In this document: positions 53,322 to 59,707 of the stretch, piece by piece
Numbering within the stretch: the first letter of the stretch is position 1
Layout of the letters: each line of letters opens with the position of its first letter
Source: a virus
IMG/VR virus record: IMGVR_UViG_3300046820_000327
Span: 1 to 60,395 of that record
DNA length: 60,395 nt
Strand: one strand, 5' to 3'
Notes under the pieces: model-generated
What the model was told of the DNA's origin: nothing
The model's database searches: none
What the model saw: the letters and a program-made list of their open reading frames with translations, nothing else
Made by a program: the position numbers and the translations under genes

Positions 53322-54260
53322 TTAGAAACGATGTGTTAAACCAACACCATACCGCTGTGCTTGGTTAGCTCTTGCTGGAGCATCTTGATTTTGGTAAGCA
53401 ATATCAACTGCTGTACGCTTGCTGAAGTTATAAGCAAAACCCACTGTGGATGTTTTTTGATCCACAACATCTTTTACACCATAACCAATTTTAAAATCAA
53501 CTTTGGTTGTGACTGGGTGCAACGCACTCAATGACCATGCTTTGTAATCAACATTAGAGATTTTGTCTTGGCTGTAGCCAGCAAATACTCGTGTTTTAGT
53601 TGGCAATGTGTATGCCGCATTTAACAATGTTGTTTCATCTGTGCCAGCTGTAGTGTAACGGAAAGCACCAAGGTGTAGGTCTTTTACTGGATTCAACACA
53701 GTATAAAATACTTGTGTATCTTCTACAGTTGCACTTTCACTTTGGCCGTTTTGGTAACCAACGATTACGCCTGCAATTGGGGTGGCTTCAATGAAAATAC
53801 CATTACCGATACGGTTGTTACGATAAGAGTGAGTTTTGTTTGCGGCACTGAACAATGGCAATACTGCAAATGCATCAAAGCGTGATTTACCGTACTGGAA
53901 CATGGCATTGTCCTTACGGCCCATATCAATGCTACCAAATTTATTTGATAGACCTACTGTACTTTGACGATCACCAAATTTACTGGCATCAGCCGATGCT
54001 GGGTTATCTGCGGCAATGCTGGTATCAATCATGAAGTTTGCACGTATACCGTCGCCTAAATCTTCAGAACCTCTGAAGAAGATGTTGCTGGTGTTGCTGT
54101 CAATTTGTGTTGCCTTGGCACTACCTGCACTGGTATTATTTGTAAAATACTGACTGATACGACCACCAATTTGCACATTTGACGAAGCAAGTACATTTGT
54201 CTGTGCTTGAGCGCCAACTGCTGTGGCCAAAAGACCAACTGCTAATAGTTTCTTAAACAT
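53322..54260 (-). CDS. Outer-membrane porin (betaproteobacterial type)
   Basis: 312 aa. MFKKLLAVGLLATAVGAQA is a signal peptide (cut before QT). The mature protein is a general porin: GGRISQYFTN, FRGSEDLGDGIRANFMIDTS, and DRQSTVGLSNKFGSIDMGRK. It ends in YGVGLTHRF with the terminal Phe that BamA recognises. It is a bit shorter than Burkholderiales porins (340-400 aa). It has a strong ribosome-binding site (AAAGGAG), its own promoter and its own terminator, so it can be expressed independently. It would change outer-membrane permeability or replace a receptor. Confidence 0.93.
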   Translation of the reverse strand: MFKKLLAVGLLATAVGAQAQTNVLASSNVQIGGRISQYFTNNTSAGSAKATQIDSNTSNIFFRGSEDLGDGIRANFMIDTSIAADNPASADASKFGDRQSTVGLSNKFGSIDMGRKDNAMFQYGKSRFDAFAVLPLFSAANKTHSYRNNRIGNGIFIEATPIAGVIVGYQNGQSESATVEDTQVFYTVLNPVKDLHLGAFRYTTAGTDETTLLNAAYTLPTKTRVFAGYSQDKISNVDYKAWSLSALHPVTTKVDFKIGYGVKDVVDQKTSTVGFAYNFSKRTAVDIAYQNQDAPARANQAQRYGVGLTHRF

Positions 54261-54293
54261 TCTAGTTTTCTCCTTTAGTTGAAACTTGATAAA

Positions 54294-54323
54294 ATTTTAC
54301 ACAACAGGACACTACGGTGTCAA
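54294..54323 (-). promoter_or_regulatory. Porin promoter TTGACA-18-TAAAAT
   Basis: TTGACA (54318-54323), 18 bp, TAAAAT (54294-54299) preceded by TGTG on the minus strand, giving a leader of about 27 nt. The layout equals the promoter at 58623-58652. Confidence 0.8.
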
Positions 54324-54477
54324 GTTATTTGTGTATCAATTTTTGATTTTATGCTAGCGAAGTATTCGCATACGGAAGGGCCCACGCATTTAAGACATAG
54401 AGGTCCTATATTGGTCCGACGTCAGTGTAACTGGCGTTGCTTTGTAAAAATATTTATTTACAACAAATTTATTTAGT
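54324..54477 (-). other. Long porin leader, shared with the Bug leader
   Basis: The 217-bp gap before the porin holds a late motif, then GCAACGCCA (rc of 54432-54440) and TGACGTCGG (rc of 54416-54424), then TCCGTATG near 54369-54377 and CTAGCA near 54352. The same elements in the same order occur at 58653-58792. GGACC is repeated directly (GGACCaatataGGACC). No short gene of the usual type is apparent in it. Confidence 0.7.
54451..54458 (-). promoter_or_regulatory. Late promoter motif AATAAATA
   Basis: AATAAATATT on the minus strand about 20 nt after the HNH stop. It sits in the loop of a possible TTGTAAA/TTTACAA stem. The porin start is about 190 nt further on. Confidence 0.5.
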
Positions 54478-54942
54478 TTATTTTTTGTTCAAATACTCAT
54501 CTATATGACTTTGTATTTGTGGCCTACGTTTTCCGTTATAATATGCTTGATGTGTTGGGCACAACGGCACAATATTATGGTCCGATGCGTCAGTTTCGTC
54601 ACCGTTGACAGCAACAATGTTCACCAATTTTTCTTCCCCGCATACACAGCAACGTTTTTCAATCTTAGTTAAATCTGGTAGCTGTATGTCGCGTTTTTGT
54701 TCATGACTCCAACGCTCAAGATACTGTTTGATTGCTGGTAATACATCCTCGGGCCAGTGACTGTGCAAATACCTGTGGTGTGTTGGGCACAATGGCAATA
54801 CATTTTCTGGGCGTTGATCCGTTTCTACTTCGTTCATGTGATGCACGTCTAGTACGCCATCCTCTCCGCATACTACGCATTTACGCTCATGGTGCTGAAA
54901 ACACACCCATCTAAATCCATTTTGAAAGTCTGTAATTTCCAT
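54478..54942 (-). CDS. Tandem HNH-type nuclease domain protein
   Basis: 154 aa with two similar halves. The first (residues about 22-60) has CVVCGEDGVLDVHHMNEV and NVLPLCPTHHRYLHSH, a complete HNH zinc-bound nuclease site. The second (about 97-140) has CCVCGEEKLVNIVAVNGDET and NIVPLCPTHQAYYN: the Cys pairs remain, but the catalytic HH is lost. It may be active only through the first half. The start overlaps the halogenase stop by one base. It could be a homing-type or packaging-type nuclease. Confidence 0.75.
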   Translation of the reverse strand: MEITDFQNGFRWVCFQHHERKCVVCGEDGVLDVHHMNEVETDQRPENVLPLCPTHHRYLHSHWPEDVLPAIKQYLERWSHEQKRDIQLPDLTKIEKRCCVCGEEKLVNIVAVNGDETDASDHNIVPLCPTHQAYYNGKRRPQIQSHIDEYLNKK

Positions 54943-56600
54943 TATTTTCTACTCCTAAATTCGTCAAAAATTTCTCTACTGCTTTTGCCATCAAACCTAT
55001 TAGCTCGTAACCACTCGTACGCATTAGGCCACTTTAGTGATCTTATGTACTTGTTGCGAGCACGGTTAAATGCAAAATAGGCTTGTGCCATTTCAATATC
55101 TTCTTTGGTCGGAACTGCAAACGGCCAGTTTTTAACTTCTGTCTTGGTCTGGATAGCCATTTTAACATAGATATGTTCCCAATAGTTCAAGTAACGTTTG
55201 CTGATATCTGTTTTTTGTTCAGTTAAAATTTGTTCAAAGTCTTCAATTAAGTTAAACTTCCTAGCCGCTTCTCTACGCTTTTCCCAATACAATCCAGACC
55301 GATTACTGAATCCGTGATGTGTGCGTACACGAAGATCTCTCTCGGCCGTAATACGACAACGATTTTCGTTAAACAAATCTCTGCCAGCCTCAATAGTTGT
55401 TTCGCCAGACTGCAATTGCTTGCGTACTTTAATCAGATCCTCGAGTCCCTTAGTGTGCTCGCTAAAGGTAGGTGCGTCCCAAGGATCGCTTAGGCCCGAA
55501 CTAACTCCAAGTTGAATACAGTTATGATTCCATGTCTTGCTGTAAAAGCCCGGCTTCCATTGAATAAGTCTAGGTTCTACTATGCGAGTACCATCAGTAA
55601 CTTTTTTGATACGCTCGAGGGTCACTTCTGGATCTACCCAGTTGCTGTTAAACACATATCCGTTGCCGCGGCGATGATATAGATTTAATTGAAAACGCCA
55701 CCCGTGGTCCTCACCATGAATGTTAGTAGCACAAATCATTTCTTTATGTGGATCTGTGTAATGGCTGGGACATACCCACGCACTGTTATTAGTGTATTCT
55801 GCTCTATCCTGCCAACTGGTGTTGCCAATTTTGTTAGTTAATACGCGACCAAAACCTGTACAGTCAATGTACAAGTCTGCTTGAAGTTTTTCTAAGTTGT
55901 CATCACGAACAATATAGTCAATACTGCCACTGTTGGTTAACCCAACGTCTTTTACGTTGGTCAAAATATGTGTTAAGTTGCCAGTGTTGCGTTGATAGCA
56001 CTGGCTTTTTAATAAGCTGACCATTTGTTCAGCGTCCATGTGGAAGCTGGTGCCACCATAGTGACGTATAATCTTTTTATTATTTTCGTCATAGGGCACA
56101 CATGGATTTTGCACAAAGTATTGAGTATCCTGCAGTTCTACCAAGAAGTCGTCCATGGTTTTACCACCGGGCTTGTTTAACAAGTCCTTGTTTAAGTACA
56201 ACCAAACATTGGCCACACCCATGTCGCCATCTTGTTTGTTCCAATGCTCATAGACATCATTATAGTCAATTCCATTAAAGTAATTGACCAGGCCCTTGAT
56301 TTTTACGTTGGTTAACTGGCCGTTGCCTATGTCTTCTCCGTCGTTCAGGAAACCAAAGTTGCGAACACCAAACTTGTATATGCTACCGGTTTCCCTCATG
56401 ATCAACTGATCGTTATCAATTCCCAGCAAATCTCTCCAAACATAAGGACTTTCAAACCCCAATGTTTCGCCAACTCCTAGTCTAGGAATAGTTGGAGACT
56501 CTAGTACTGTTATACGCAGGTCAGGGCAATGGTTCTGTAGTGCCAGTGCCGTAAACCATCCTGCAAAACCTCCACCTACTATAGCTACGTGATTGATCAT
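54942..56600 (-). CDS. Flavin-dependent tryptophan-halogenase-like enzyme
   Basis: 552 aa, the family's normal length. GGGFAGWFTALAL (residues 9-21) binds FAD, LGVGETLGFE (41-50) is the GVGE motif, and GSIYKFGVRNF places the catalytic Lys at 76 (Lys79 in PrnA/RebH). The GWxWxIP motif is changed to GWRFQLNLYHRRGNGYVFNS, so it lacks the second Trp and the Ile-Pro. Such enzymes chlorinate or brominate indole rings with FADH2 from a separate reductase. Related genes occur in cyanophages. The substrate and even the reaction are open. Confidence 0.8.
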   Translation of the reverse strand: MINHVAIVGGGFAGWFTALALQNHCPDLRITVLESPTIPRLGVGETLGFESPYVWRDLLGIDNDQLIMRETGSIYKFGVRNFGFLNDGEDIGNGQLTNVKIKGLVNYFNGIDYNDVYEHWNKQDGDMGVANVWLYLNKDLLNKPGGKTMDDFLVELQDTQYFVQNPCVPYDENNKKIIRHYGGTSFHMDAEQMVSLLKSQCYQRNTGNLTHILTNVKDVGLTNSGSIDYIVRDDNLEKLQADLYIDCTGFGRVLTNKIGNTSWQDRAEYTNNSAWVCPSHYTDPHKEMICATNIHGEDHGWRFQLNLYHRRGNGYVFNSNWVDPEVTLERIKKVTDGTRIVEPRLIQWKPGFYSKTWNHNCIQLGVSSGLSDPWDAPTFSEHTKGLEDLIKVRKQLQSGETTIEAGRDLFNENRCRITAERDLRVRTHHGFSNRSGLYWEKRREAARKFNLIEDFEQILTEQKTDISKRYLNYWEHIYVKMAIQTKTEVKNWPFAVPTKEDIEMAQAYFAFNRARNKYIRSLKWPNAYEWLRANRFDGKSSREIFDEFRSRK

Positions 56601-56603
56601 ATA

Positions 56604-57698
56604 TTATATCTCATAAAAAGGCGTTATCATGCCATGAAAGTTATTACTGGCAGCATTAAAGTATTGGCTGTCTACTAGACTTTTAATTAGTTCGAGGCCT
56701 TGACTATGTTGAGTTTTTAAAACATCGTCGCTGTTTAGTATGCCTTTGTCTGAACTAACTGTTGTGTCTGTGCTTTTTCTTAACTGAAACCAATTTGGGT
56801 TCCAGGTTGGATAAACTTGCTCTCTAACCACCGACTGATAATAGTCAATGGGTATACCTGGTGTAGGTGGCCAAGAAATCAAGGAATGCAGTTCTGGGCG
56901 AGCCTGGAAATATCGTTTTAGCATGTGTGCTTGTTTTCTTAATATAGGCTCAGCTTCAGGTGCCCAATAAAACCATTCAGTTTCTGCATTGCCTACTTGT
57001 GCTTGATCGGGAGTCATACTATATCCCACTACATCAAGAAAGTAAATGTAGTACTTACCGTCTTTGATTACTATTCTAGGCTTATCAACTCCCATTATGT
57101 AACCAACACGATTCTTTGTGTGTACGCTATCAATATGCTGTAGTGATCTGCGTTGCTCAATAAAAGGATTAAGCATGACGTTACGATTGTCCCAGAAATC
57201 TTCTGGCAGTGACAGGTCTCGGTGTTCCCACCAATCGTACAAGGTTAACTTAATGTCAGGGTATTGCTGTGAGATCCATTGAAAATCTATCTTGGCTCTA
57301 AATTCCCACTCGGCAGTTACGTTGTTGCTGTAGTGCCATTCCGTGGTTGTGGCTTCGTAATTGTTGCCCATGCCCTTGTAGCTGTATCTACTTACTATTT
57401 CATCTAGCTTGATATTGTTTTGTAAAAATACATCTAGTATATTTCTACTGTCCGATCCACCACTGTAACCTAGTATCAGATAGTCGTAAGTATCACGTAA
57501 TTGTTGAGCACGTTGTCGGTACAGTTCCCACAAACTTTCTGTGGGTTCTTGTTTCCACTTAACTTGATCAAAAAACTCGCGATGAAACACCCACTCAGGG
57601 TGGGTGTTTGTTTCTGTTCCTTTAAGTAGAGCAGGTATCTTGTGCTGATATTCCTGTGCGCCTACTCGATAAAAACCTAATCGCTTGTTAATTTGCAC
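56604..57698 (-). CDS. PP-loop (asparagine-synthase-like) ATP-pyrophosphatase
   Basis: 364 aa. LILGYSGGSDSRNILDVF (about residues 73-90) is the SGGxDS PP-loop that binds ATP and adenylates a substrate. The rest is unlike asparagine synthetase or QueC: no glutaminase domain is present, and Trp-rich helices follow (WPPTPGIPIDYYQSVV). Adenylation of a carboxylate or a nucleobase and then amide or other bond formation is expected. The gene lies 3 nt before the halogenase gene and overlaps the Bug gene by 11 nt, so a joint pathway is likely. Confidence 0.75.
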   Translation of the reverse strand: MQINKRLGFYRVGAQEYQHKIPALLKGTETNTHPEWVFHREFFDQVKWKQEPTESLWELYRQRAQQLRDTYDYLILGYSGGSDSRNILDVFLQNNIKLDEIVSRYSYKGMGNNYEATTTEWHYSNNVTAEWEFRAKIDFQWISQQYPDIKLTLYDWWEHRDLSLPEDFWDNRNVMLNPFIEQRRSLQHIDSVHTKNRVGYIMGVDKPRIVIKDGKYYIYFLDVVGYSMTPDQAQVGNAETEWFYWAPEAEPILRKQAHMLKRYFQARPELHSLISWPPTPGIPIDYYQSVVREQVYPTWNPNWFQLRKSTDTTVSSDKGILNSDDVLKTQHSQGLELIKSLVDSQYFNAASNNFHGMITPFYEI

Positions 57699-58602
57699 GT
57701 AAAAACTTTGCTAGTTGTTCAATTTTGGCTTGGCTTTGTTGCGGTGTACCATCCACTACATTGTGATAAGGTGCTGTACGCTTAAGGAAACTCTGCACGT
57801 CGTCGCTGTGTATAGCTTTACGCAATCTTTTGTTTAATTCAAGCACGTCTGCATCCGAGGCATCAGTTCTAGCAAAAAGAATAACCATGCTGGTGATATT
57901 CTCAATGTCTGGCCAACGCTTGATTAAATTTTCTGTTGTGCTTCTATCTCCAGTAACACTGGCATGTGCAATTTCTTTAATACCAGTTACACCCGACATC
58001 ATTCTAATACTACCACCATCAACGTATGTCTCAAGAGAACCGTCTTTAAGATTAACAAGTGCGTCAGTTGGCTTTCTATAAAGAACCAACTCGTACTTAG
58101 CACCAACATGATCTAGTGCATGAGTTAAAACCTTGCTACTGGTTAATGCAGGTGCACCAACTAAAATTGGCTTTCCTGTTTGACGACTACGTGCTATTAC
58201 TGCATCCAATGTTGCTGGACCACCTTCTGGTGTTAAGATAAACTGCGTGAATTTCAAATAATCCACTATAGGTTTAAGTGTATTAACAGCCGGGGATTGT
58301 GCATTGGCTTTTTGATTAAATCCAGCTACACCGTTACCAGCACAGAAGATTGCCGGCTCAGTGCTTTTAATAAACTCACGATGTGCAATAATTTGATCTG
58401 CACCAGTCATATTTTTATGAATTACATTGACATTGTTTTGTTTTGCGTAAGTATCCATTAGATTTCTACACATAACATCCACAACGCTACCAACTGCAAA
58501 AGGTGTATATACTGCTAATGTTTCAGTTTTTATAATTGAGCCGGGCTGTGCAAATGCTGTAGTTGATACAACAGCCAAGGCTAAAAGGATCTTTTTGATC
58601 AT
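57688..58602 (-). CDS. Bug/TctC periplasmic solute-binding protein 1
   Basis: 304 aa from Met 58602 (MIKKILLALAVVSTTAFAQP), which is 7 nt behind AGGAG; an earlier Met at 58632 lies upstream of that site. The signal peptide is cut after AFA. The mature part follows the TctC/Bug fold: ETLAVYTPFAVGSVVDVMCR, the NMTGADQIIAHREF segment (usually GAGGxIAA) and a long C-terminal helix. Bug proteins bind carboxylates or amino acids and hand them to TTT transporters. They are abundant in Burkholderiales. It heads the halogenase operon. Confidence 0.85.
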   Translation of the reverse strand: MIKKILLALAVVSTTAFAQPGSIIKTETLAVYTPFAVGSVVDVMCRNLMDTYAKQNNVNVIHKNMTGADQIIAHREFIKSTEPAIFCAGNGVAGFNQKANAQSPAVNTLKPIVDYLKFTQFILTPEGGPATLDAVIARSRQTGKPILVGAPALTSSKVLTHALDHVGAKYELVLYRKPTDALVNLKDGSLETYVDGGSIRMMSGVTGIKEIAHASVTGDRSTTENLIKRWPDIENITSMVILFARTDASDADVLELNKRLRKAIHSDDVQSFLKRTAPYHNVVDGTPQQSQAKIEQLAKFLRAN

Positions 58603-58622: not shown

Positions 58623-58652
58623 AGTTTAACATATTGCTAGTAGGATTGTCTA
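58623..58652 (-). promoter_or_regulatory. Promoter of the Bug/halogenase operon
   Basis: TAGACA (58647-58652), 18 bp, TAAACT (58623-58628) with TGT before it on the minus strand. The leader to ATG 58602 is about 14 nt and contains the AGGAG site. Confidence 0.65.
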
Positions 58653-58756
58653 CATACGGAGCGGCGTTCTGGGCATATCATGCCAGTAAAAGAGTTTTAC
58701 TACTCTTAGCGTCACTATTGTAACCGACGTCAACAGAATGTTGGCGTTGCTTTAAA

Positions 58757-58764
58757 TATTTATC
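58757..58764 (-). promoter_or_regulatory. Late promoter motif GATAAATA
   Basis: GATAAATATT on the minus strand overlaps the end of the hairpin that follows the second Bug gene. ATG 58602 is about 155 nt downstream. Confidence 0.55.
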
Positions 58765-58782
58765 TCCCCGAAGGGAGATAAA
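58759..58782 (-). terminator. Terminator-like hairpin after Bug gene 2
   Basis: Perfect 10-bp stem TTTATCTCCC/GGGAGATAAA with a TTCG loop on the minus strand, but no long T-tract after it (TATTTAAAG). It probably gives partial termination or protects the 3' end. Confidence 0.65.
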
Positions 58783-58792
58783 CTTGATTTAA

Positions 58793-59707
58793 TTAATTTG
58801 ATACTTTAACGTTTTGAGTTAAACGTTTCCATTGAGAAATTTGTCCACTAAACCATGCATCCAATTGATTGTCTGCCATTTGATTATTAGGAGTACAATT
58901 GTCAGCGGCATTTGCGTCTTTTACGCTCTGTGCTCTGCTGGCTTCTACTAAAATCTTTCGGATACTAGCAAATTTTTCTGCAGGCATCTTTTGAGATGCA
59001 AAGATCTGTTGAGGTGTGCTCATGTCTAGTAATTCTTTGCTGAATCCTTGATTGGCCAATAGCTCTGTGCCTTTGACACTAACTTTACCAGTCTGGCCTA
59101 ACCAGTAAATTCTTTTTACCGATGTTGCATCTGTGTACTGCTCGCTGTCACCATGAAATCCCACGCTAAAATCAACTGCTCCACTTAAAACACCTAACAG
59201 GGCTTCGCTGGTACTCTTAAATGGTACAATGGTTAGGTTAGGATAGTTTTTAGCAATCTGGATGGATACTAAGTGTGTGGTTGTCCCCATACCGCTCATA
59301 CCAATTGATAGTTGTGCATTGGGTGGAACTTCTTTCCATGACTTGTACTTTGCACTAGAAATAACAAAAGGTGAAATGCACATTGGCAAAATACTACGGA
59401 AATCTTCCATACGGTGGCTGTCGGCAGGGAATAGGTTAGGACGAATAAAACCAGCCGAACTATTAATCCACAGGGTATTTGTTGGGTTGTTGTTTGTATA
59501 ATTGGCCGCAATAGTACCACCAGCACCGGGCTTTGTATCGAACACAAAATTGTATTGTGTTTGCAATTTGTTTGATTCTTCGGCTAATGCTCGATAATAA
59601 TTTGATGCTTTATCGGCTGCTGTCCACGAGTAGGCCAGTGTAATAGTCTCACGTGCTGTGGCTGTAAAACTGAGGGTTGCTAAAATAATAGCTATTAATT
59701 TTTTCAT
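58793..59707 (-). CDS. Bug/TctC periplasmic solute-binding protein 2
   Basis: 304 aa. MKKLIAIILATLSFTATA is the signal peptide. KPGAGGTIAANYTNNNPT matches the GAGGxIAA ligand loop better than copy 1, and SIGMSGMGTTTHLVSIQIAK and GAVDFSVGFHGDSEQY fit the domain-2 pattern. It delivers a carboxylate-type ligand to a host tripartite transporter. The two Bug proteins share low identity and are not a recent duplicate. It has an AAAGGAG site and lies 23 nt after dCMP deaminase. Confidence 0.88.
   Translation of the reverse strand: MKKLIAIILATLSFTATARETITLAYSWTAADKASNYYRALAEESNKLQTQYNFVFDTKPGAGGTIAANYTNNNPTNTLWINSSAGFIRPNLFPADSHRMEDFRSILPMCISPFVISSAKYKSWKEVPPNAQLSIGMSGMGTTTHLVSIQIAKNYPNLTIVPFKSTSEALLGVLSGAVDFSVGFHGDSEQYTDATSVKRIYWLGQTGKVSVKGTELLANQGFSKELLDMSTPQQIFASQKMPAEKFASIRKILVEASRAQSVKDANAADNCTPNNQMADNQLDAWFSGQISQWKRLTQNVKVSN

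Follow-up and report, generated by a model that had tools for sequence, protein, structure and literature searches.

What does a T4-like phage do with a solute-binding protein, a PP-loop enzyme and a tryptophan-halogenase-like protein packed into one operon? The question is raised by positions 54,478 to 58,602 of IMG/VR record IMGVR_UViG_3300046820_000327, a 60,395-base fragment (the window) whose open reading frames (ORFs) for UvsW, NrdA/NrdB, a helicase and a collagen-like fibre are those of a T4-like phage. The original prediction had joined the genes into a pathway of substrate uptake (Bug), adenylation (PP-loop) and halogenation or oxidation. All four ORFs of this stretch were confirmed on the minus strand, overlapping or nearly touching as it had described: Bug1 and PPL (used throughout for the PP-loop protein and its family) overlap by 11 bp, PPL and the halogenase-like gene are 3 bp apart, and the latter shares 1 base with an HNH gene. 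The order of transcription on the minus strand is dCMP deaminase, Bug2, hairpin, leader RNA, Bug1, PPL, halogenase-like protein, HNH protein, partial leader and porin, and the prediction contained neither Bug2, nor the leader RNA at 58656-58752, nor the partial RNA copy upstream of the porin. The core of this module is the PPL family packed beside solute-binding proteins, not the halogenase. What is new here is the PPL family, its tie to binding proteins and a leader RNA missing from Rfam. We read the locus, with a confidence slightly short of even, as a cassette for uptake and activation that large T4-like phages express late and control by an RNA.

The window PPL carries SGGSDS at residues 79-84, as predicted. 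It had no Pfam, NCBIfam or PDB-sequence match, and its PHROG matches were at chance level. Single-sequence scans of IMG/VR with PPL and the halogenase returned nothing, and profiles were required. The first PPL homologs came from neighbouring phages picked by UvsW similarity, and their alignment was then used for the IMG/VR profile search. One profile scan yielded about 240 relatives on contigs of up to 374 kb, and many phages have 2-4 PPL copies. Among 84,980 bacterial and archaeal species genomes there was 1 match, on a 3.1 kb contig (L251, CAIVYW010000332.1) binned as a Methylococcaceae metagenome-assembled genome (MAG); its layout is PPL-RNA-DctP-PPL, leader RNA included, and it is probably phage DNA contaminating the MAG. 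A tblastn search of 50,697 deposited phages at E up to 10 found no PPL, an emptiness that is suspicious, and a repeat with another PPL member at E=0.01 again found none. In the open-access literature neither the PPL family nor its pairing with Bug nor the leader RNA was found described, and the predicted absence of any described phage system of this set held there too. PPL is an undescribed phage family, restricted to phages.

The conservation of PPL is as expected of a working nucleotide-binding enzyme. Nearly all of 105 unique full-length sequences have the loop as SGG[GSA]D[SG], and the residues R63, R68, K206, Q256, H258 and K308 (window numbering) are near-invariant; S79, G81 and D83 are invariant across 84 sequences, and a KQAH motif is conserved. 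The AlphaFold2 model built from an 84-sequence alignment (predicted local distance difference test, pLDDT, 88.6; predicted template-modelling score, pTM, 0.90) places the SGGxDS loop between strand E73-77 and helix H82-93. Foldseek searches with this model gave LarE, MnmA, GMPS, NADS and TtuA among weak matches, to the core only, with TM scores <=0.38. The top match by E-value, the EgtD methyltransferase, was rejected on a root-mean-square deviation over 9 Å and a TM score of about 0.2. The QueC profile reached 8 of 84 PPL members (best E=0.0049) and a PAPS-reductase PHROG 4 of 84 (4.7e-5), both below the family cut-off, and neither profile matched the window PPL. Asparagine synthetase was likewise not matched, PPL having neither a profile match over the cut-off nor the glutaminase domain, whose absence had been predicted. 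PPL resembles the PP-loop ATP pyrophosphatases (QueC, PAPS reductase, LarE, MnmA, NAD and GMP synthetases) in having SGGxDS at the same strand-loop-helix place, but differs from them in belonging to no curated family, in its best TM score of about 0.38, in its distinct N- and C-terminal parts, and in KQAH, the R63/R68/K206/K308 set and phage restriction. The PP-loop motif would point to adenylation.

The partners of PPL are solute-binding proteins. Bug1 alone had no Pfam match; it did match a Bug hidden Markov model (HMM) built without window members (E=5.6e-26), in support of the earlier Bug call. Bug2 is 79% identical to the Bug of another locus (L183), which adjoins a PPL. Of 86 PPL loci, 59 contain Bug and 54 DctP-type genes, and in 62 a Bug or DctP gene lies directly beside PPL on the same strand. 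HMM searches of 79 PPL loci (887 kb) counted 76 Bug and 70 DctP genes, versus none of either in 80 control loci chosen by UvsW (895 kb), and 1 Bug and no DctP in 105 halogenase loci (1,056 kb). PPL stands beside a solute-binding protein, often with the leader RNA, in dozens of uncultured phages and in no deposited phage genome searched. The DctP matches in deposited "phages" were of low identity, the sole annotated one being a Salmonella TRAP receptor, and look like bacterial DNA.

A hydrophobicity heuristic gave a signal-peptide-like N-terminus in 75 of 77 full-length phage Bugs, and these proteins are, by that heuristic only, probably secreted. By the same heuristic, 38 of 40 full-length DctP-type proteins fell below the signal-peptide threshold. 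Since a representative is a true PF03480 member (5.8e-51), the DctP proteins seem to be related to periplasmic receptors but to stay in the cytoplasm. About a dozen loci have DctP as two overlapping ORFs (about 157 and 162 aa), as would be expected of a receptor assembled from two chains or produced by frameshifting. Beside Bug and PPL, two loci (L366:6452-7723 and L171:2-562) encode a TctA permease subunit or the apparent end of one, and the uptake system of some phages may therefore exceed a lone binding protein. That a phage should supply a periplasmic binding protein, presumably feeding a host permease, has a parallel in phage PstS (reviewed in PMC6359870) and other auxiliary metabolic genes for nutrient capture. 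The present cassette differs from PstS in combining Bug (tripartite tricarboxylate transport, TTT) with DctP (TRAP), in having several such proteins per genome, and in its link with a leader RNA and an ATP-dependent enzyme. For TTT transport in phages, the open-access literature yielded a single mention, a tctA domain match in SUP05 virus contigs (PMC4164917).

A repeated element, GCAACGCC...GACGTCGG, occurs upstream of both Bug1 and the porin (2 in the window, 0 expected), and in PPL loci it is the start of a structured RNA of about 95 nt. The consensus of 31 copies aligned with MAFFT has closing GC pairs, three co-varying hairpins, an invariant CGUC/GACG helix and invariant unpaired junction bases. 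In this alignment 97.9% of cells are paired, 12 of 20 pairs show double changes, and the covariation score of 0.440 (0.194 when shuffled) was reached by 0 of 500 shuffles; sliding the pair partners by 1-3 columns lowered pairing to 28-53%. A covariance model (CM) found 56 copies in the set of PPL loci (1.0 Mb), window and L276, whereas 1.79 Mb of control loci had none. Of 54 copies with called neighbours, 41 are followed by DctP and 13 by Bug. Among 50 whole PPL records, 38 copies were found in 35, usually one each, even in contigs of 350 kb. A scan by DNA pattern, in which PPL was not the seed, recovered 29 CM-confirmed copies, and the genes behind them comprise DctP, Bug, PPL, DUF2061-PPL, TctA-Bug-PPL, a TauD-type oxygenase and a desaturase; the copies before TauD, desaturase and DUF2061 genes hint at a wider regulon. 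Rfam 15 gave no match at E<=1 in the window operon region, nor to the element in five other loci, and no leader RNA was found in 184 other Gammaproteobacteria genomes.

The RNA appears to begin at a late transcription start. An octamer matching at least 7/8 of TATAAATA, the core of the T4 late promoter, lies within 30 nt upstream in 55 of 72 distinct RNA copies, compared with 20% in the shuffled control, and the best match begins at -11 or -12 in 59 of the 72. General promoter and terminator consensus scans were little informative. The partial leader at the porin (within 54260-54443) has the first hairpin and the 3' hairpin, with the middle missing, and was not called by the CM at E<=0.05. This degenerate copy, at a Gram-negative-type porin, is preceded by a strong sigma-70-like site (TTGACA-18-TAAAAT). 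The resemblance of this porin is what would tentatively link the phage to a host. The leader shares with Rfam riboswitches and candidate leaders its 5' position, a junction of invariant bases, co-varying hairpins and placement before transport genes; it differs from them in lacking an Rfam match, in being phage-borne and usually single in a genome, and in lying behind a T4-type late promoter. A conserved, covarying structure in a 5' leader is also a mark of riboswitches, and ligand control is suggested by the conserved junction and by the position of a single copy ahead of transport genes.

Does the halogenase belong to this module? Trp-halogenase genes were found in 10 of 50 PPL records versus 0 of 30 records chosen by UvsW without a PPL match, the latter being smaller. 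Six of 12 halogenases lie <=5 kb from a PPL copy (1.8 expected, p=0.004), and with the window left out 5 of 11 do (1.7 expected, p=0.017). The association is confined largely to one type of enzyme. Eleven viral proteins, that of the window included, form a single clade (support 100/99), hereafter D-type, and among those 12 halogenases all D-type members but one lie <=2.5 kb from PPL. Of the six canonical halogenases in these PPL records, five lie 24-58 kb away, the exception being 3.7 kb away in G104, and the idea that all halogenases in these phages link to PPL was rejected. The opposite idea, that PPL and halogenase never adjoin elsewhere, was dropped after profile searches found L234, L269, L276 and L407. 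The L276 operon reads halogenase-Bug-PPL-putative Fe(II)/2-oxoglutarate (Fe2OG) oxygenase, with all genes overlapping and a halogenase 41% identical to that of the window; L407 reads halogenase-RNA-Bug-PPL and L234 Bug-PPL-halogenase-PPL-DctP, and L269, L196 and L237 are looser cases. Counting the window, seven divergent phages combine a D-type enzyme with PPL and usually with Bug or DctP, and L276 and L407 rebuild the window trio in another gene order. Since PPL loci were the route to some of the D-type proteins, only L276, and L407 via the RNA, are independent support. Halogenase and PPL thus sometimes belong together, specifically when the enzyme is D-type, and the D-type flavoenzyme is best read as an optional tailoring step. 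The original prediction is supported in part: the trio recurs, but a central place for the halogenase is not supported, chlorination of tryptophan is unsure, and the suggested halogenated indole signal or modified nucleobase is speculative. In some loci an oxygenase-like protein, f51, lies near PPL (L276, L187, L203, L205 and L206); it shows HxD...H by eye and has no Pfam match, and its identity as an Fe2OG oxygenase is putative.

The window enzyme is a clear family member (PF04820, 172.5 bits against a 21-bit cut-off, E=1.9e-50; PHROG 2928, E=3e-58). The FAD motifs GxGxxG and GVGE (G9, G11, G14, G42, G44 and E45) and Lys76 are kept, and GWxWxIP is altered, reading GWRFQLN, all in agreement with the original prediction; residues of the halide loop are altered as well. 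Its model (pLDDT 90.8) has the full Trp-halogenase fold, with a TM score of 0.82 to PrnA and matches also to PyrH and VirX1. Whether the protein could bind FAD had been raised as a check; the FAD fold is intact in the model, and FAD binding by the D-type enzyme is likely. VirX1 and the cyanophage and pelagiphage tryptophan halogenases (PF04820, PHROG 2928) share with the window enzyme viral origin, fold, FAD motifs and catalytic Lys, and VirX1 is its best PDB sequence match and among its top fold matches. The window enzyme is unlike VirX1 and the cyanophage enzymes in its separate clade, in GWxF, in its place beside PPL and Bug, and in an Asp at position 375, which by the alignment and PrnA numbering is the Glu346 position of PrnA. 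In this respect the D-type flavoenzymes carry the PrnA E346D change naturally, and they may reveal the chemistry of the halogenase fold where tryptophan is not chlorinated. All 11 D-type proteins have Asp at both the D372 and D375 positions and Phe at position 303 of GWxW, whereas 120 of 122 canonical viral halogenases have Glu at the D375 position and 109 have Trp at 303. The catalytic Lys (PrnA K79; window K76) is kept in 10 of the 11. The other D-type protein (L270:7479-9089) has Arg in its place (SIFRVGS) and is possibly not a halogenase at all.

According to a review, replacing the Lys by Ala abolishes activity, a PrnA variant with Gln for the Glu loses two orders of magnitude, and a MalA variant with Asp for the Glu retains low but observable activity (PMC8407142). 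The Asp at the Glu346 position, the altered GWxWxIP and the altered halide loop together make tryptophan chlorination unsure, and the low activity of the MalA variant leaves halogenation by the D-type enzyme possible but unsure. Monooxygenation is also possible.

In the uptake-and-activation reading, a T4-late-like promoter would drive a transcript with a structured regulatory RNA at its 5' end. Periplasmic Bug proteins would capture a small, probably carboxylate-bearing solute and pass it to a tripartite tricarboxylate (TctAB) permease, either that of the host or, in some phages, one with the phage TctA, and PPL would spend ATP in the cytoplasm to adenylate that solute or a cell target. Many relatives add a DctP-type binding protein that would be cytoplasmic (Bug outside, DctP inside). 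In some lineages, the window included, the D-type flavoenzyme would oxidise or halogenate the same compound, and in others the putative Fe2OG oxygenase would stand in its place. At the late stage the regulatory RNA would tune synthesis of the capture proteins and PPL. This scheme draws on gene content, recurrent adjacency, motif conservation, two model folds, and the covariation and placement of the RNA; a substrate shared by the cassette proteins is suggested by their neighbourhood. A more specific version, in which an undescribed phage riboswitch class senses a small molecule and controls capture proteins, a PP-loop ligase and interchangeable oxidative enzymes that modify the imported compound, is conceivable but doubtful. 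The locus opens to testing a part of giant-phage metabolism that is widespread but undescribed. Should the RNA be a riboswitch, the nature of its ligand would directly reveal what the capture proteins and PPL act on.

Several observations weigh against this reading. The RNA is absent from 15 of 50 PPL records, and its single-sequence folding is no better than that of shuffles (z -1.0 to +0.9); since these energies are unremarkable, the case for the RNA draws on covariation and placement, and that for its structure on covariation alone. In about one third of cases no binding protein adjoins the PPL copy, and the binding motifs of phage Bugs deviate from the textbook PFxxGG, so that a ligand other than a carboxylate is possible. 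Among solved structures the PPL fold has no close relative, both terminal parts of the protein are without assignment, and a PP-loop does not reveal which bond is made. Counting against a central halogenase, most PPL loci lack one; three loci (L006, L277 and L278) have a window-type halogenase and no PPL in the fetched DNA, L006 being an 8 kb fragment, and the D-type halogenase of G090 sits at the usual hotspot without PPL beside it. The predicted co-occurrence of halogenase and PPL in phages was accordingly found in the seven phages above and failed in these cases. Because many loci are near-copies (for example L234-236, L211/212, L215/216 and L247-249), the cassette counts are not independent events, and they derive from simple ORF calls on records that are fragments.

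The most serious competitor to the cassette is that PPL, binding proteins, flavoenzymes and oxygenases are independent genes gathered at tolerated sites behind a late promoter. Cassettes do occur at several distinct places in the genome, following the UvsX-MT4-CTP7 or the f5 block or preceding the lysis-like block, and the G090 enzyme at the same hotspot, the distant canonical halogenases and the window-type halogenase of L006 among recombination genes all agree with such gathering. The pairing of PPL with Bug or DctP is far too regular for it, however, and halogenase, Bug and PPL recur as overlapping genes in differing orders, with halogenases closer to PPL than expected. Mere gathering is doubtful overall, improbable in the case of PPL with its binding proteins and possible in that of the halogenase. 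That PPL modifies a macromolecule (tRNA, a DNA base or a protein), as do relatives of MnmA, TilS, LarE and QueC, with the binding proteins supplying a precursor, would suit a cytoplasmic, multi-copy, phage-restricted family with weak fold matches to MnmA, LarE and TtuA and weak QueC and PAPS-reductase matches in some members. Yet the neighbourhoods show no sulfur-transfer cysteine motif, RNA-binding domain or DNA-modification partner, and repeated pairing with small-molecule binding proteins would be unusual for tRNA or DNA modification genes, which makes this improbable. More improbable still is counter-signalling, in which cytoplasmic DctP would sponge up a host or defence signal that PPL or the flavoenzyme inactivates. 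It is favoured by DctP without a detectable signal peptide, often as two overlapping genes, and by a phage-restricted family; against it, the Bug partners look exported, late promoters are poor timing for counter-defence, and the RNA also heads TctA, TauD and desaturase genes, which points to metabolism.

For the RNA itself, a serious contender to a riboswitch is a site for protein binding, or a leader acting on mRNA stability or translation in a particular set of late genes, a role to which we give rather less than an even chance. It begins at the predicted late start and matches no Rfam aptamer, and single-sequence folds showed no clear alternative helix masking the ribosome-binding site (RBS). 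A general late leader would hardly be limited to one copy per genome, even in 350 kb contigs, and the genes behind the RNA are mostly transport genes and PPL; invariant unpaired junction bases with co-varying stems are typical of ligand-binding RNAs.

The features are collected in Table 1. The hairpin behind Bug2 is a possible terminator of the upstream unit, a role that is uncertain because the minus strand has no T-run. The HNH gene, which lies within the coordinates of the original prediction but had no role in its model, is probably incidental to the cassette; no HNH relative was found beside other PP-loop genes.

Table 1. Features of the window operon and of related phage loci.
Feature	Position	Strand	Remarks
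Bug2, TctC-type solute-binding protein, upstream of the RNA-headed operon	58793..59707	minus	PF03401, E=2.4e-7
Hairpin CUCCCUUCGGGGAG between Bug2 and leader RNA	58759..58782	minus	inverted repeat; UUCG loop on minus strand
T4-late-promoter-like octamer GATAAATA	58757..58764	minus	7/8 match to TATAAATA; 12 nt upstream of leader RNA model start
Leader RNA core, heads Bug1-PPL-halogenase-HNH operon	58656..58752	minus	93 model positions; CM R1 86.6 bits, E=3.6e-15, this copy having belonged to the CM training set
Bug1, TctC-type solute-binding protein	57688..58602	minus	N-terminal signal peptide MIKKILLALAVVSTTAFAQ by hydrophobicity; ATG at 58602, RBS AGGAG; longer ORF begins at 58632
PPL, 364 aa	56604..57698	minus	GTG start; SGGSDS; founder sequence of the phage PP-loop family examined
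D-type flavin-dependent halogenase-like protein, 552 aa	54942..56600	minus	PF04820, E=1.9e-50; K76, D372/D375, F303
HNH-type protein, 154 aa	54478..54942	minus	PF13391, E=6.7e-5; PHROG HNH families; 3' gene, translationally coupled
Partial leader copy (first hairpin and flanks) upstream of porin	54416..54443	minus	exact GCAACGCC...GACGTCGG pattern
Phage-encoded porin	53322-54260	minus	gene behind partial leader copy
RNA before TauD-type oxygenase, fatty acid desaturase and DUF2061 membrane protein genes	L406:414-1457, L373:6811-7857, L361:561-1010
Split DctP	L175:8224-9179, L185:2742-3700, L190:7347-8302, L224:8226-9178, L230:7330-8285
Split DctP, further loci			L173, L176, L179, L180, L204, L228

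Two further observations concern genes around these enzymes. In L006 (94-4483) the window-type halogenase lies between gp47- and gp46-like genes, and in Synechococcus phage S-B64 (L004) a halogenase gene lies beside the gp46/gp47-like recombination nuclease genes; the gp46/gp47 region is thus another halogenase insertion hotspot, in two unrelated T4-like phages. The peroxidase pair AhpC and AhpD is encoded directly upstream of or near PPL in L166, L173, L175, L176, L218, L220 and L225, which, as a guess, would fit peroxide-producing flavin chemistry.

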